This document shows, piece by piece, positions 2,108-11,434 of a DNA stretch of 64,000 nucleotides. Both the position numbers and the translations under genes were made by a program. Location of the stretch: NCBI GenBank assembly GCA_020630975.1, contig JAHDID010000022.1, positions 1 through 64,000 of the forward strand. Direction: 5' to 3'. Every line of letters begins with the position of its first letter. Position 1 is the stretch's first letter. The stretch comes from Verrucomicrobiota bacterium. GTDB taxonomy: Bacteria; Verrucomicrobiota; Verrucomicrobiia; Verrucomicrobiales; DEV007. Under the pieces are notes generated by a model that saw nothing but the letters and a program-made list of their open reading frames with translations, was not told the DNA's origin and did not search any database.

Positions 2108-2143
2108 TGTACCCTATTGAATAAAAATTGTACCCTATTGAAT
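2108..2143 (+). repeat. Direct-repeat pair, locus 1 of 3 (15-bp unit, 21-bp period)
   Basis: Two copies of TGTACCCTATTGAAT at 2108-2122 and 2129-2143. The same pair with the same 21-bp period occurs at 32608-32643 and, inverted, at 60195-60231. Here it sits between the endonuclease stop and lnt, and the second unit contains the TTG that opens the lnt reading frame. No transposase is nearby. Confidence 0.9.
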
Positions 2144-3885
2144 CGTTGAAACCAGCTCTCCTCTCGATCCTCAGCGGAGTACTTTTGGCACTGGCCTTCC
2201 CTCCTTGGGGGCTAGATGTTTTGGTATGGGTGTGGAGCTGGCCCTTGTTGATCGCATTGTGGTTCACTGGCCAGCAGGACGGGTCTCGCAAGCAGCGCAT
2301 CAAACGCGGCTTCTGGCTGGGCTACCTGTGTGGATTCGTGTTTTTCGCGATGAACACGCACTGGATCTTTCACACCGGCAAAGTCGTCGGTATGTGGATC
2401 GCCGGAGTCGGTGCAGTCGTGGGCATGGGTCTGTACCTCGGTCTCTACTTCGGACTTTTTGGCATTTTTTCAGCCACGGCGGGGCGGCTCCAGCTCCCAC
2501 CAGTGACCCAGTGGCAGTCCAAAGGAGAATCATCGTTGCTCGACCCCAAATTTATCAGCGATCTCTTCGGCCACTCGTGGACCGTGATCCGCGTCGCTTT
2601 TCTCAATGGAGCCTGCTGGTGCGGGCTCGAGTGGCTGCGCAGCGTCGCCTTCACCGGCTACAGCTGGAATACTCTAGGCGTCGCATTGGTCGAACGCCTG
2701 ATGCTCGTCCAGTTCGCCGATACCATCGGCCAGCTAGGCTACGGCTTTATCATCATGTTCTGCGGGGTCGTAGGGTTGGCCACTGTGTTTCGTTTTGCCA
2801 AAGAGATCAGACACCACCAAGCGATGCGACCTCACCTCGATTTCGCCGCTGCGATAGCGATCGTGATCGGCATCTTTTTGTATGGTTTCGACAAAGTCGT
2901 CGAGCGGCCGGAGGAAACCGTCGACCTCAAAGTGCGCCTCATCCAAATGCGCACCTCGATCAATGATAAATACTCCTCTGACCAAGCGGTGCTACGCGGC
3001 ATCATCGACGACTATCGGGAGAGCACTCGACTGTGGGTAGACCATGGTGATTACGATCTGGTCATGTGGCCGGAGACCGCTATCCCAGCAGTATTTAGCC
3101 GGCAAGACACTGCTGATTACTTCAATAACGATATCCTAAAAGGCGACGACTTCTACCTGCTCACTGGCATCGAGGAAAACGACATCAACGGCGGCATCTA
3201 CAATACCATCACCCTAATGAAGGGCCACACCGACAGCCACCAGATGTACACCAAAATGCATCTCGTACCATTCGGTGAGTACGTGCCGGGCCGCGACTGG
3301 CCGATCCCGATCTTCGATTGGATCTTTGGCAAGGTGATCGGCTACGACTTCACTCCCGGCACCTCCTATGACAATCTCTACATCGAGAAAGCTGGGCAAA
3401 AAATCGGCCTCATGCCCCTGATCTGCTTTGAGGATACCGTAGCTCGGCATGCCCGAAAATTCGTGCTCGAGGGCCAGCCCCAATTCCTCGCCAACGTCAC
3501 CAACGACGCTTGGTTTTACGACAGTGCTGCGCGCGATCAGCACTTCGCCAATGCGAGATTCCGCTGCATCGAGCTGCGCCGTCCCATGGTCCGAGCGGCC
3601 AATACCGGTGTGAGTGGCTTCGTCGATGAGACCGGCAATATCTACGACCGCGACTCACCAGAAACCGAACCACGGCGCCGTATCATCGAGGATCTCGTGA
3701 CTGGTGACACCTACATTGAGGGCAGCACGGTGGAGACGCTGAAAGTCGATCTCTCGCCACCCACTAGCGTCTACTCACGCATCGGTGATGCCTTTTCCAT
3801 CACCATGGCAGCGATCGCCCTAGCCGTTTGGTTGGGCTGGTTTTTCCTGATTAGTCGGATCAAAAGCGACGAATCACTGAAATGA
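2128..3885 (+). CDS. lnt: Apolipoprotein N-acyltransferase
   Basis: 585 aa inner-membrane enzyme that adds the third acyl chain to the N-terminal diacylglyceryl-cysteine of lipoproteins. The N-terminal half holds several hydrophobic segments, roughly residues 9-45, 62-80, 88-115, 155-225 and 238-254. The C-terminal half is a carbon-nitrogen hydrolase domain with the expected Glu-Lys-Cys triad: E316 in WPETAIP, K376 in TKMHLVPFGEYVP and C433 in LICFED. A final hydrophobic helix lies near residue 560. The start is uncertain. The first in-frame candidate is a TTG at 2128 inside the dispersed repeat; a second TTG at 2146 would give a protein six residues shorter and outside the repeat unit. No ATG precedes the first membrane segment. 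Confidence 0.93.
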   Translation: MYPIESLKPALLSILSGVLLALAFPPWGLDVLVWVWSWPLLIALWFTGQQDGSRKQRIKRGFWLGYLCGFVFFAMNTHWIFHTGKVVGMWIAGVGAVVGMGLYLGLYFGLFGIFSATAGRLQLPPVTQWQSKGESSLLDPKFISDLFGHSWTVIRVAFLNGACWCGLEWLRSVAFTGYSWNTLGVALVERLMLVQFADTIGQLGYGFIIMFCGVVGLATVFRFAKEIRHHQAMRPHLDFAAAIAIVIGIFLYGFDKVVERPEETVDLKVRLIQMRTSINDKYSSDQAVLRGIIDDYRESTRLWVDHGDYDLVMWPETAIPAVFSRQDTADYFNNDILKGDDFYLLTGIEENDINGGIYNTITLMKGHTDSHQMYTKMHLVPFGEYVPGRDWPIPIFDWIFGKVIGYDFTPGTSYDNLYIEKAGQKIGLMPLICFEDTVARHARKFVLEGQPQFLANVTNDAWFYDSAARDQHFANARFRCIELRRPMVRAANTGVSGFVDETGNIYDRDSPETEPRRRIIEDLVTGDTYIEGSTVETLKVDLSPPTSVYSRIGDAFSITMAAIALAVWLGWFFLISRIKSDESLK

Positions 3886-3996: not shown

Positions 3997-6522
3997 ATGA
4001 AGGTGGTATCAGCAGCAAAGGCAAAATGTAGCGGCGTGGTACAGGCGGTAGTCTGTGTCTCTTGCTTAGGTGCCGCCGGCACATCCGACTACATCCTCCG
4101 CCACGAGGTAAAGGGCAAAGCCCGGCGCGCGCTAGTAGCTGCCGATTACCAGCTAGGCGCGGGAGGCATCATCCGCGCCATTCAGGAGGACAACCTCGAG
4201 CTGTTTAAGGAATTCGACACGGCCAAAATCTCTTATGCTAAGCCTGACTCCAATGGCGTGACACCGCTCCACTACGCTGTCGCCTCTCAGAAAGCAGAAG
4301 CGATCGACGAACTCTTGGAGGACCAGAAGCGTCCAGAGGATCAGAAACGTCGCAAGCAGGTTGCCCGGACTATCAATAAAGCTTCTACCAGCGGTAAGTC
4401 CGCTTTCAAACACGCTCTGGAGCAGCGCGACTACGACCTAGCGGATCGCCTGCTAGATCTCGGAGCCGATATCAATCTAGAAAGAGAGCCGGGCCAGCCC
4501 TGGCTGGTCCACGCGATCGAGAGCGAACAGCCAGAGCTGCAGACCTTTTTGATCGATCGGGGGATCGATGTGAACGCTAAAGGTACACAGCCTCACCCTC
4601 CCCTAGCCATGGCCGCCGCGCGCAACGATCTGCCGCTCATGGAGAGCCTCACCTCCAAAGGAGCCGACATATCCATCAATGGCACCAAAGGCAAAACACT
4701 CCTACTAGAGGCCATCTTTGCCGACCAACGCGAGGAGATCGCCTTCCTCCTCGAAAAAGGTGTGGATACCAATGCCAAAGGCAGCCACGACCACCCACCC
4801 CTAGCAGTAGCAGCGGCCAATGATGATCTGCCCCTGATGACCGATCTACAGGCACACGGTGCCGAAGTCGAGATCACCGGTGCCACCGGCGAGCCACTCA
4901 TGCACGAGGCGCTACTCGCCAATCAATACGACGAGGTCGCTTTCCTGCTCGACAAAGGGGCCAATCCAGACACCTCGGCTGACTCTCTGCTCACTGCTCT
5001 CGAGCGCGAAGACGGCTTTCTCCTCGAGCAATTGATCTCTCACGGAGCGAAACTCGATCGAACAGGCCGGTCTGGCGATCACCTGCTGTTCGAAGCTTAC
5101 GACCGCGGCGATATCGACTGGCTCATGCAGCTCGTCGACTCTGGTATCTCAGCCGATCTACCAGACAAGGACGGCCAGACACTCTTCGCTAAGGCGGCTC
5201 AAAACGGAGAGTACGACCTGCTCGACTTCGTCATAGCCAAAGGTGCGGACGTGAACCAAAACGTGACCGATGAACAATCCGCTACTGAGCACGCCGTAGC
5301 ACACGGGGACCTAGCCCTACTCCGTACCATGGCTCAGGCTGGTGCTCACATCGATTTTGCCAACCTCGCGCAAACCGCCTACCAGCGCCGCGATCACCCC
5401 ACCCTGAATCTCCTACTAAATGGAGGTATGCCACCAGAAGTGAAGCTACCTGCATCCGGCAAGCGCCTCTTCGACCTAGCCATGGAGGACCGCTCCATCG
5501 ATACCGCTCGCAGCCTGCTGCGCAAAGGAGCCGACATCAAAGGCAACTTCTGGACAGCCCTGCAAAATGGCATGGAAGACATCGTGGTGCTGTTTCTCAA
5601 AGAAGGCGAAGATCCCACACAGCGCGGCCCCAACGATGAGACACCTCTCGAGTACGCCCTCAATCAAGAGATGTACTCCCTGGTGAAACCCCTCCTCGAT
5701 GCTGGCGCCCACGCCAGCGCCACAACCGATAGCAATGAAACATGGCTGGCCAAATCGATCCGTACAGGAGATTCAAAAATCGCCATGGCCCTACTCAATG
5801 CGCGCGCGGATCTAGGAGACGAGCGCACCATCGATGGCCACTCGATGCTCGGCTGGGCTATCGCCAATGAGATGTCCGATGTCGCACTCGCCCTGATCAA
5901 AGCCGGGGCCGATGTGAACATCATCGAACCCGACAAAGCCAGCTCAGAGCTAATCAAGAAATTCAGCGACAGCTCAAAATTCACCTACTACCTGAAAGTC
6001 GACCGCAAGATCCGTCCTGTCATGATGGCCGCGGCCAAGCGCAACCACGTGGTCGCACGAGCGATGATCAACGCCGGCTGCCGCAATTACCCCTCGGCCA
6101 GATCCCTCTACCCAGTGGCCATCGGTGCCTGGACTGCCGACGTCCGCATGATGCAGATCCTCTTCAACCGCAACCCCGACTACCAGCCTCGGAAACTCGA
6201 AGTCAATCTATCCAGCCAGCGCGTAAAGCTCTACCAAAACGGCAAACTCATTCACTCCTCCGTCTGCTCGACTGGCAAGCGAGGCTACGCCACCAAGACC
6301 GGTTCATTCGTGATCACTCAGAAAAATCGCCACCACGTGTCGAACCTCTACGATGCCGAGATGCCCTATTTCATGCGTCTCAGCTGCGACGACTTTGGCT
6401 TCCACACCGGTGTCTGCCCAGGCTACCCCGCCTCCCACGGCTGCATCCGCCTGCCCAACTCCACCGCCGCCAAGTTTTTCAATATCTGCTCACTCGGCGA
6501 TCTGGTCGTGATCCGTTATTAG
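3997..6522 (+). CDS. Ankyrin-repeat protein with C-terminal L,D-transpeptidase (YkuD) domain
   Basis: 841 aa. A hydrophobic N-terminal segment (about residues 12-30) suggests export or membrane anchoring. Residues 60-720 are a long array of ankyrin-type units, with recurrent phrases such as LLEKGVDTNAKG and LLDLGADINLE. Two neighbouring stretches around residues 190-320 are so similar (HPPLAMAAARNDLPLM, then HPPLAVAAANDDLPLM) that a two-unit block was duplicated fairly recently. Residues 732-841 form a YkuD domain with the catalytic signature SHGCIRL (Cys816) and an upstream His in FGFHTG. YkuD domains cross-link peptidoglycan stem peptides or attach proteins to them. The ankyrin region could position the catalyst on a partner protein. 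The substrate and the partner are unknown. Confidence 0.88.
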   Translation: MKVVSAAKAKCSGVVQAVVCVSCLGAAGTSDYILRHEVKGKARRALVAADYQLGAGGIIRAIQEDNLELFKEFDTAKISYAKPDSNGVTPLHYAVASQKAEAIDELLEDQKRPEDQKRRKQVARTINKASTSGKSAFKHALEQRDYDLADRLLDLGADINLEREPGQPWLVHAIESEQPELQTFLIDRGIDVNAKGTQPHPPLAMAAARNDLPLMESLTSKGADISINGTKGKTLLLEAIFADQREEIAFLLEKGVDTNAKGSHDHPPLAVAAANDDLPLMTDLQAHGAEVEITGATGEPLMHEALLANQYDEVAFLLDKGANPDTSADSLLTALEREDGFLLEQLISHGAKLDRTGRSGDHLLFEAYDRGDIDWLMQLVDSGISADLPDKDGQTLFAKAAQNGEYDLLDFVIAKGADVNQNVTDEQSATEHAVAHGDLALLRTMAQAGAHIDFANLAQTAYQRRDHPTLNLLLNGGMPPEVKLPASGKRLFDLAMEDRSIDTARSLLRKGADIKGNFWTALQNGMEDIVVLFLKEGEDPTQRGPNDETPLEYALNQEMYSLVKPLLDAGAHASATTDSNETWLAKSIRTGDSKIAMALLNARADLGDERTIDGHSMLGWAIANEMSDVALALIKAGADVNIIEPDKASSELIKKFSDSSKFTYYLKVDRKIRPVMMAAAKRNHVVARAMINAGCRNYPSARSLYPVAIGAWTADVRMMQILFNRNPDYQPRKLEVNLSSQRVKLYQNGKLIHSSVCSTGKRGYATKTGSFVITQKNRHHVSNLYDAEMPYFMRLSCDDFGFHTGVCPGYPASHGCIRLPNSTAAKFFNICSLGDLVVIRY

Positions 6523-9193: not shown

Positions 9194-11434
9194 ATGAAAT
9201 CGCATACCAAGAAACACGACAAGAGGTCTACGCTCATCCCCTCGGCTGGCCTTATCACATGCGCCGCGCTGGCTATCGCCAGCTATTCTCTGGGCAATGA
9301 TGCTATCAGCTCATTGCCGACAGCCTATGTCAGCGGTACCGATACAGCCGAGGTCTCAGCAGAAGCCCCACTGCAGATCGTGCAGACCAGTCGCCTGGGC
9401 TTTGCTGATTTCCTGCTAAAGCTGGACCAGCTCACCACCGAGTCATCGATCGAGCAGGATCATCTCTCGAGCCAGTTGGCTAAAAGCTACCAGACCTACC
9501 AGTCCACAGCCGAGCTATCGAAGCATGGCCTGGCTGTACCCATGCGGGTGAAAGCCGCGCAGGTGGAATTCCAGAATCACAGAGACCGTCTGATCGCCCA
9601 CTCGCAGTACCGCCAGCTACTGAGCTCGCTAAATCGAATCGTCGATCGACAGGACTACGATATCCAGCAGCAAGATGAGGGCGAAAATGTAGCGCCACAC
9701 TTTCACTTCCGGATCCCGGGTCTGAGCCTACGAGTCGGCGAGCACGACTACTTCACCGGACATCTAAAAGCCCAGCCGGAGACAGCAGCCCGACTCATCG
9801 ACTACACCAGTGCCAAAGCCTTTGCCTCGTCTCAGGTGCCACATCGTCAGGCGATTCAGGACTACCTAGAGCATCGCAAAGCAGATCTCGATGCCCTAGT
9901 CGTGCAATACCCTGTCGAGCGCCAAAACATCAACTACTACCTGACTAAGATCAAGATCGCTCAGGAAGCAGGCCAGCAAAATTACCTGCGGAACAAGCGG
10001 AACAAGCACCACCTAAACGATTTCCTCAAATTCACCGAGGACCCTTCTCGTGAGGCAGTCGAATTTCCTGAGACTTCTGAAAATATCTGGCTACTCGGCG
10101 ATGGCGCAGCCAAGCCACGCACAACGATTTCTCCAGAAGGTGTCGAGTCTGCCAGGCTACTCTCTCAATCTGCTAGCGATAGCGAGCTCGCCAGCGTCCG
10201 TCTGAATGCGGCCCAAAACAAACTGCAGCGAGTGACTCGCCTGCGCCAGACTGGTGATACTAGCCTAACAGAACTGAGCAATGCCACTCTGGAGCACCGA
10301 CTCGCGCAGATCGCACTGGAGAAAGCCAAACTGCAGGATCACATCTCGAGCCTGAGCCACGCCGTGCTAGCCACAGCGGCCGAAGAGCAGACCGCCTGGA
10401 CGCAGACCGCACGCCTACCACATGAGCTATCCGCTGAAAGCTGGCAATCACTCCTCCATGCAGGCCCTGCCAAAGACCTGGCACAGATCCTCGATTTCCT
10501 CGACATCGCGCACGCGAATTTCGCCTCCGGCGCAGCCACTCAGTCGAGCAAGCGCATCTTCGAGCTTTCATCCGAGAGCAGAGATATCTACGCCTCTCTA
10601 CCAAACCAGATGCCCATCGAAAGAGAGACCCAAAGGGCAAATTTCATCCAAGCCAGAGCCGACTACCTGACCGCTCACACCGTGCAGCAGTGCACCCTGC
10701 TCGATGCCACAGCCTGGGTAGCAGCCTCGCCCGAGTCGGATACCGCCATCCAGCAGCTGGCCACCGAGACTCTCGACCAGATCATCCTAGCCAGCCAAGC
10801 CATGCTCGAAGCACGGATGACTATCGCGACTCTCGACTACGATGCTAAATCTGCCGTCTACGATCACCATCTGGCTCATCTCGATCGCCTGATCGATCTG
10901 CACCAGGCGGGCAAACTACGCCGCTTCGAGCTGGACACTGGCTACCAGCAGGCCAAAGCCCACCGCGGCGCTGCCGAGTCGGCTCACTGGCAGGCTACTC
11001 TGGTCCAGAAAGAGGCCGAAGCTTTCGACAGCCTACTCGAGCACCGCTGTCTCGACTACGACCAGACCTATGGCATGCGAGTGACTCACCTACCCCAGCC
11101 AGTGATCGATCGCCTAGCCGATCTCGCTGCACACCGAGAGGGTAGCGATCCGGGGAAAATCACCGAGCTAGAAGCACGCCACACGATCATCTCAAACCGG
11201 ATCGATCAGGTCAGCCAGCTAGCCCTAGAAGGCTACGCATCGAATGAGGAATACCGCATGGAGACTATGATGCTCCTGCAGGTCGAAAACCTCCTCGCTA
11301 CCGAGCTGGGCAAAGATCTAGTCGCAGACGCTGCCAGCGATGTGGTGAGATCTCTCCGCTTCGATCGCGAGGTAGAGTTTCAAAGCTCTCCTGTGCTAGT
11401 CCGCCTGAGCAAGCCTGACGAGGAAGAGGACTAA
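9194..11434 (+). CDS. Secreted or anchored helical-hairpin repeat protein, function unknown
   Basis: 746 aa. A positively charged start followed by LITCAALAIASYSLG (about residues 19-34) indicates a signal peptide or membrane anchor. The rest is strongly helical and rich in Ala, Leu, Gln and His. I do not recognise a catalytic domain. A recurring phrase of the type L..hxxG..s..eL......l.A...L, like the hairpin turns of TolC and membrane-fusion proteins, occurs near residues 106-130 (ELSKHGLAVPMRVKAAQ), 349-375 (RLRQTGDTSLTELSNA), 567-595 (RLIDLHQAGKLRRFELD) and 675-700 (LALEGYASNEEYRMET), and more weakly near 440. These suggest a long coiled-coil scaffold or periplasmic adaptor. The C-terminus is acidic (PDEEED). 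No transport genes adjoin it. Confidence 0.7.
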   Translation: MKSHTKKHDKRSTLIPSAGLITCAALAIASYSLGNDAISSLPTAYVSGTDTAEVSAEAPLQIVQTSRLGFADFLLKLDQLTTESSIEQDHLSSQLAKSYQTYQSTAELSKHGLAVPMRVKAAQVEFQNHRDRLIAHSQYRQLLSSLNRIVDRQDYDIQQQDEGENVAPHFHFRIPGLSLRVGEHDYFTGHLKAQPETAARLIDYTSAKAFASSQVPHRQAIQDYLEHRKADLDALVVQYPVERQNINYYLTKIKIAQEAGQQNYLRNKRNKHHLNDFLKFTEDPSREAVEFPETSENIWLLGDGAAKPRTTISPEGVESARLLSQSASDSELASVRLNAAQNKLQRVTRLRQTGDTSLTELSNATLEHRLAQIALEKAKLQDHISSLSHAVLATAAEEQTAWTQTARLPHELSAESWQSLLHAGPAKDLAQILDFLDIAHANFASGAATQSSKRIFELSSESRDIYASLPNQMPIERETQRANFIQARADYLTAHTVQQCTLLDATAWVAASPESDTAIQQLATETLDQIILASQAMLEARMTIATLDYDAKSAVYDHHLAHLDRLIDLHQAGKLRRFELDTGYQQAKAHRGAAESAHWQATLVQKEAEAFDSLLEHRCLDYDQTYGMRVTHLPQPVIDRLADLAAHREGSDPGKITELEARHTIISNRIDQVSQLALEGYASNEEYRMETMMLLQVENLLATELGKDLVADAASDVVRSLRFDREVEFQSSPVLVRLSKPDEEED

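Follow-up and report, generated by a model that had tools for sequence, protein, structure and literature searches.

A 64,000-nucleotide window of a Verrucomicrobiota bacterium (contig JAHDID010000022.1 of assembly GCA_020630975.1, positions 1 to 64,000) encodes a protein in which a long array of ankyrin units and a YkuD-type L,D-transpeptidase (LDT) domain are joined in one chain, and homologs of this architecture form a conserved verrucomicrobial ankyrin-LDT family that is apparently undescribed; its component parts are known. Regarding function, we prefer, at roughly even chances, the reading that the protein is a membrane-tethered L,D-transpeptidase carried on a stiff periplasmic ankyrin arm with a docking site. 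The open reading frame starts with ATG and runs uninterrupted for 841 amino acids, with the following features:

3997..6522, + strand: whole gene, putatively membrane-anchored ankyrin-array L,D-transpeptidase, 841 aa and stop (open frame, Pfam, AlphaFold2)
4000..4140, + strand: hydrophobic N-terminal helix and stalk, residues 2-48, a putative signal anchor, with a DYxLRHE motif common to the genus
4159..5349, + strand: membrane-side ankyrin units, residues 55-451, with core but not exposed positions conserved in genus orthologs
5350..5682, + strand: residues 452-562, surface-conserved in genus orthologs, candidate docking site, the finger loop being shortened in two of its units
5683..6189, + strand: last ankyrin units, residues 563-731, running up to the LDT domain and containing a conserved helical insert (about 640-668)
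6190..6516, + strand: YkuD L,D-transpeptidase catalytic domain, residues 732-840 (Pfam, model, 5bmq alignment)
6403..6405, + strand: His803, catalytic His by alignment
6442..6444, + strand: Cys816, catalytic Cys of SHGC

Both halves of the protein were recovered by Pfam searches. YkuD (PF03734) matched residues 732-839 (E 1.2e-18; 68.5 bits against a curated cut-off of 23.4), and Ank_2 (PF12796) matched six stretches (E 5.2e-48) of tandem 33-residue ankyrin units. The LDT domain also aligned to the solved L,D-transpeptidase 5bmq (E 2.2e-9) with His803 and Cys816 in register, and to YkuD; Cys816 sits in the sequence YPASHGC, and H803, S813, H814, G815, C816, and R818 are invariant in a 58-row alignment. 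The fusion and both active-site residues are therefore present in one protein, and the earlier note on this DNA had correctly picked out the fusion and its catalytic cysteine. The full-length AlphaFold2 model (predicted local distance difference test, pLDDT, 90.4; predicted template modelling score, pTM, 0.58) comprises a helix at residues 2-48, helix pairs over 55-722 that we count as some 20 ankyrin units, agreeing with the roughly 660 ankyrin residues of that note, and a beta-rich domain at 732-840, for which a YkuD fold with its active site is predicted. The model of a short homolog gave Foldseek matches to the LDTs 5bmq, 4k73, and 4jmn, the last two with a root mean square deviation of 2.3. 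PADLOC matches of the protein were to ankyrin models, and VIA-align matches were all to ankyrin chains and are uninformative for the LDT part. Besides Cys816, the window copy has four cysteines in its LDT domain (residues 757, 797, 807, and 831; window positions 6265-6489), which it has in common with its homologs C9, C56, and G24a and mostly not with other members; disulfides or redox control are possible roles.

The fusion recurs widely among relatives. The 7.1-Mb source genome (G000, whose contigs carry C numbers) has 20 YkuD matches and three ankyrin-YkuD genes, namely the window copy, one of 773 aa on C9, and one of about 484 aa on C56. At E <= 1e-30, 44 of 56 genomes (G000 included) have a match: 31/33 in the genus, 1/2 in the rest of the family, and 12/21 in the rest of the order; two genus loci have one in-frame stop each. 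In a phylum-wide draw of 288 genomes, 21 matched at E <= 1e-35, 18 with ankyrin units and LDT in one frame and 3 with the LDT part only; since eight candidates were scored per genome, some matches may have been missed in this draw. In a further set (A3), each of the 36 sequences, 7 at full length and 29 reduced to the C-terminal part, gave matches to Ank_2 as well as to YkuD. Given three copies in one genome, matches in 44 of 56 relatives, and 18 one-frame fusions in the phylum draw, the fusion is not an assembly artefact, and the separate-gene halves that the earlier note had in mind as a sign of one were not what the relatives showed. Among 80 loci kept from a scan of 570 relatives, the verrucomicrobial matches (L067-L131) derive mostly from metagenome-assembled genomes, with the cultured strain Roseibacillus ishigakijimensis among them, and the ankyrin-LDT matches belong to Verrucomicrobiales and Chthoniobacterales; in the proteobacterial LDTs L132-L146, the match was confined to the LDT part. 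A viral origin was rejected: in each of the 80 best viral-contig loci the match starts no earlier than query residue 146, in the LDT part, and none includes the ankyrin part. In a same-order genus with genomes of 2.2-3.5 Mb, loci L147 (2970-3803) and L148 (2925-3758) encode a related LDT behind an ankyrin-free stretch, and the fusion was found in none of the 21 listed genomes of this genus in the phylum draw. The source genome also encodes a stand-alone LDT of about 200 aa (L298, C135:64911-65237), located about 58 kb away from the ankyrin-LDT gene of the window. At the place of the SHGC of the ankyrin family, five of six ankyrin-free LDT rows (L298 among them) read SAGC and the sixth reads SSGC.

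The N terminus of these proteins suggests an envelope location. Genus orthologs begin with a transmembrane-like helix ending in DYYLRHEVTRKAKRFL or similar, and across Verrucomicrobiia the same architecture starts with either a transmembrane-like helix or a lipobox. Outside the genus, a regular-expression scan flagged 13 of 61 further proteins for a lipobox; after three hits within the first 8 residues were discarded, 10 credible lipoboxes remained, and about 5 more proteins have a near-lipobox. From these sequence features we infer that the protein is exported and kept in the envelope membrane, consistent with the periplasmic placement proposed earlier. In Verrucomicrobiaceae, as modelled for the 401-aa homolog L122, a proline-containing tether predicted to be disordered replaces most of the ankyrin units: the L122 model (pLDDT 81.9, pTM 0.72) falls below pLDDT 50 at all but one of residues 21-101, and its ankyrin and LDT head lies mostly above 90. 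That the same predicted head occurs on a different tether speaks for a modular build, in which anchor, spacer, and head can be separated.

Conservation along the array was evaluated in 18 genus orthologs (mean identity 65%) as the chance that two rows agree, with residues 323-384 lying outside the orthologs' alignment and with positions assigned by DARPin (designed ankyrin repeat protein) numbering to what are presumably binding face, convex side, and core. In the membrane-side units these classes scored 0.33, 0.35, and 0.73, respectively, so that the fold-determining core but not the surface is conserved and the stretch looks like a scaffold or spacer. Exposed positions are conserved as well in the units at 456-550 (0.61, 0.75, and 0.78) and in the last two units (0.78, 0.65, and 0.79), with 0.63, 0.39, and 0.75 in those at 583-616; these later stretches look like interaction surfaces, and the LDT domain scored 0.82. 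This pattern favours residues 452-562 as a docking site in the genus. A docking block as a family-wide feature was rejected, as no such peak appeared in four other groups (8, 10, 6, and 10 sequences).

Under our preferred reading, the N-terminal helix (or lipobox) would hold the exported protein in the envelope membrane, the membrane-side units would act as a stiff spacer, and the units around 452-562 would be the docking site for a wall component or an envelope partner. Together with the last units, the LDT domain would form one rigid head acting on nearby peptidoglycan stems, where it could make 3-3 cross-links or attach a protein to the wall. Several observations weigh against this proposal. 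The charge-based topology is ambiguous, the RHEVTRKAKR stretch after the transmembrane helix being itself basic, and the overall shape and reach are uncertain because the full-length pTM is 0.58. The surface-conserved block is confined to this genus, with four other lineage groups having only a gradient rising towards the LDT, and the window copy keeps 34 of the 63 fixed genus positions of the 452-562 block. Lastly, two LDT proteins of the genus with 2.2-3.5-Mb genomes carry the related LDT without ankyrin units, so some LDTs can do without the arm.

The array of the window copy contains a two-unit duplication:

4561..4758, + strand: first copy, residues 189-254
4759..4956, + strand: second copy, residues 255-320

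The copies, at an offset of 66, are identical at 36 of 66 residues, and a weak stretch of the AlphaFold2 model (residues 292-304) falls inside the duplicated region. None of the three nearest copies (C9, G24a, and G24b) has the duplication, the window copy being alone with it among those compared. At the DNA level 121 of 198 bases are identical, and because only 23 of 66 third codon positions agree, the duplication is old; the earlier note had thus recognized a real duplication and misjudged it as recent. Its further suggestion that array length is evolving does not hold in any free sense within the genus, where 14 of 18 orthologs are exactly 772 aa and all are 770-774 aa (24 loci entered the ortholog script and 6 fell out on reading-frame length or motif). 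The repeat stretch is held just as constant in another ankyrin lipoprotein of the genus (for example, 243 vs 242, 245 vs 242, and 248 vs 247 aa), and the lengths of family members span about 283 to 841 aa (leaving out fragment L123, and with some starts guessed), with the equivalent of roughly 4 to 22 units ahead of the LDT. Length constancy is therefore no evidence for a ruler, and a strict ruler or fixed reach is unsupported.

Other functions were weighed against a docked, spacer-borne enzyme. The array might be a cis regulator that blocks or opens the LDT active site on partner binding, in the manner of the ankyrin inhibitors of Bdellovibrio wall enzymes but fused to its target; passages of PMC4686830 describe Bd3460 as blocking DD-endopeptidases and the ankyrin protein Bd1180 as sharing an operon with the LDT Bd1181, which would be analogous. 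The units beside the LDT are also the most surface-conserved of the array, but 20 units would be superfluous for a fused inhibitor, and we consider this rather unlikely. It is unlikely, too, that the array binds envelope proteins for the LDT to link covalently to peptidoglycan, a role that the surface-conserved block of the genus orthologs would suit and for which the action of LDTs on Lpp (PMC12274547) would be a precedent by analogy. No partner gene recurs across all lineages, lipA alone standing beside genus copies.

DpaA has the YkuD fold, and YkuD-fold enzymes include hydrolases. The LDT domain could accordingly resemble DpaA, which detaches Lpp (PMC8263019), and act as a hydrolase or carboxypeptidase of stems or wall-protein links instead of a transpeptidase; this appears distinctly unlikely in that its motif and fold match ordinary LDTs, though these do not separate the two reactions. 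We also hold it very unlikely that the solenoid works as a gauge in the manner of a spring, with one end fixed in the membrane and the other docked to the wall, and stretches with turgor or periplasm width; if true, the LDT head would act only where the gap is right, and cross-linking would follow mechanical load. Lastly, toxin systems are known to contain LD-peptidase domains as well as ankyrin repeats (PMC3482391), and the protein could be imagined as a secreted antibacterial toxin of polymorphic-toxin type, with an LD-peptidase head on an ankyrin stalk. This is exceedingly improbable: the gene is near-universal in the genus (31/33) and keeps its place beside lipA in 20 of 28 genus loci, the protein carries a putative membrane anchor and a constant rather than variable LDT head, no immunity-like neighbour recurs among genes of 100 aa or more, and the ankyrin part is absent from the 80 best viral-contig loci.

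To return to the family as a whole, phylogenies of the LDT domain bear on its origin. A tree of 125 rows required five label changes and had long branches. With nine long, short, or distant rows dropped, a single branch split 98 ankyrin rows from 18 others (Shimodaira-Hasegawa-like approximate likelihood ratio test, SH-aLRT, about 91, not starred). Enlarging the set to 127 rows, by eleven of which one has ankyrin units and ten do not, gave a quick tree that needed two changes, and a tree with all 99 ankyrin rows together was 2.9 log units better than it (approximately unbiased test, p-AU 0.66). Judging from these trees, a single origin is neither rejected nor proven. The nearest LDT rows of the window copy are G24a and C56 (starred), and it is the C9 copy that adjoins lipA, the place kept in the genus (20 of 28 loci, L022-L049, some others of which end too soon to tell); the window contains no lipA, and by these sequence comparisons its gene is a derived paralog. 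The short paralog on C56 (L011:1495-2949), near the window copy in its LDT, has lost most membrane-side units, starts with a cleavable-looking signal sequence, and has SKGC in place of SHGC, as does B. subtilis YkuD.

Beyond lipA, neighbours are unrelated and confined to single lineages (an HtrA-like protease, an aminotransferase, an IF-2B-like protein, and others) in a survey that left out six loci without a located core. Directly upstream of the window gene, on the same strand, lies an apolipoprotein N-acyltransferase (2128-3885; LNT_N, CN_hydrolase), and many ankyrin-LDT homologs are themselves likely lipoproteins; as the window copy is not at the lipA place of the genus, this adjacency is perhaps a coincidence. 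Further upstream (203-2099), a DNA cytosine methyltransferase followed by an NgoMIV restriction enzyme match (Pfam E 1.5e-109; PADLOC REase_II E 3e-96) forms a type II restriction-modification pair. Downstream (9194-11434) is a 746-aa protein for which Pfam gave nothing at E <= 0.001; its start resembles a signal sequence, and long stretches of it look helical.

The usual picture of an LDT is that of a small enzyme on a short anchor. Our searches of the open-licence PubMed Central literature brought up no paper on a fusion of ankyrin units to an LDT, the words "ankyrin" and "Verrucomicrob" are absent from the main text of a 2025 LDT review, and little turned up on wall building in Verrucomicrobia. 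A phylum-specific LDT on a long arm, with lineage-typical lengths and a genus-level candidate docking block, could offer a handle on how wall enzymes are placed in the envelope, and its natural variation in length (the equivalent of roughly 4 to 22 units) suits testing of the spacer, docking, and regulation ideas.

Compared with YkuD-family L,D-transpeptidases (PF03734; nearest solved 5bmq), the window protein is alike in catalytic domain, His, SHGC Cys, and beta fold, and differs by the ~20 ankyrin units and membrane anchor in front, with 13 residues from His to Cys; the nearest NCBIfam model is PRK06132 (NF004785), which it matches with 124.5 bits, below the NCBI cut-off of 169. Long eukaryotic ankyrin solenoids (AnkB 4rlv, AnkR) are similar in array length and repeat type, whereas the window protein is bacterial, presumably exported, and enzyme-ended, and global superposition is poor (TM-score 0.19-0.20). 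A second ankyrin lipoprotein of the genus (L165:1363-2520, on C15 of the source genome), whose family is present in 23 of 33 genus genomes at E <= 1e-30, shares the anchor, a similar-looking N-cap, and ankyrin units, but its C-terminal part differs, with no Pfam match and no LDT. The nearest precedent is the Bdellovibrio ankyrin/LDT operon with Bd1180 beside the LDT Bd1181 (PMC4686830), and Bd3460 of Bdellovibrio is similar as an exported ankyrin protein tied to peptidoglycan enzymes. Bd3460 is a separate, short inhibitor of six repeats, of a type encoded beside the enzyme it blocks, whereas here and in the relatives the array and its LDT are encoded in one frame, as one chain.
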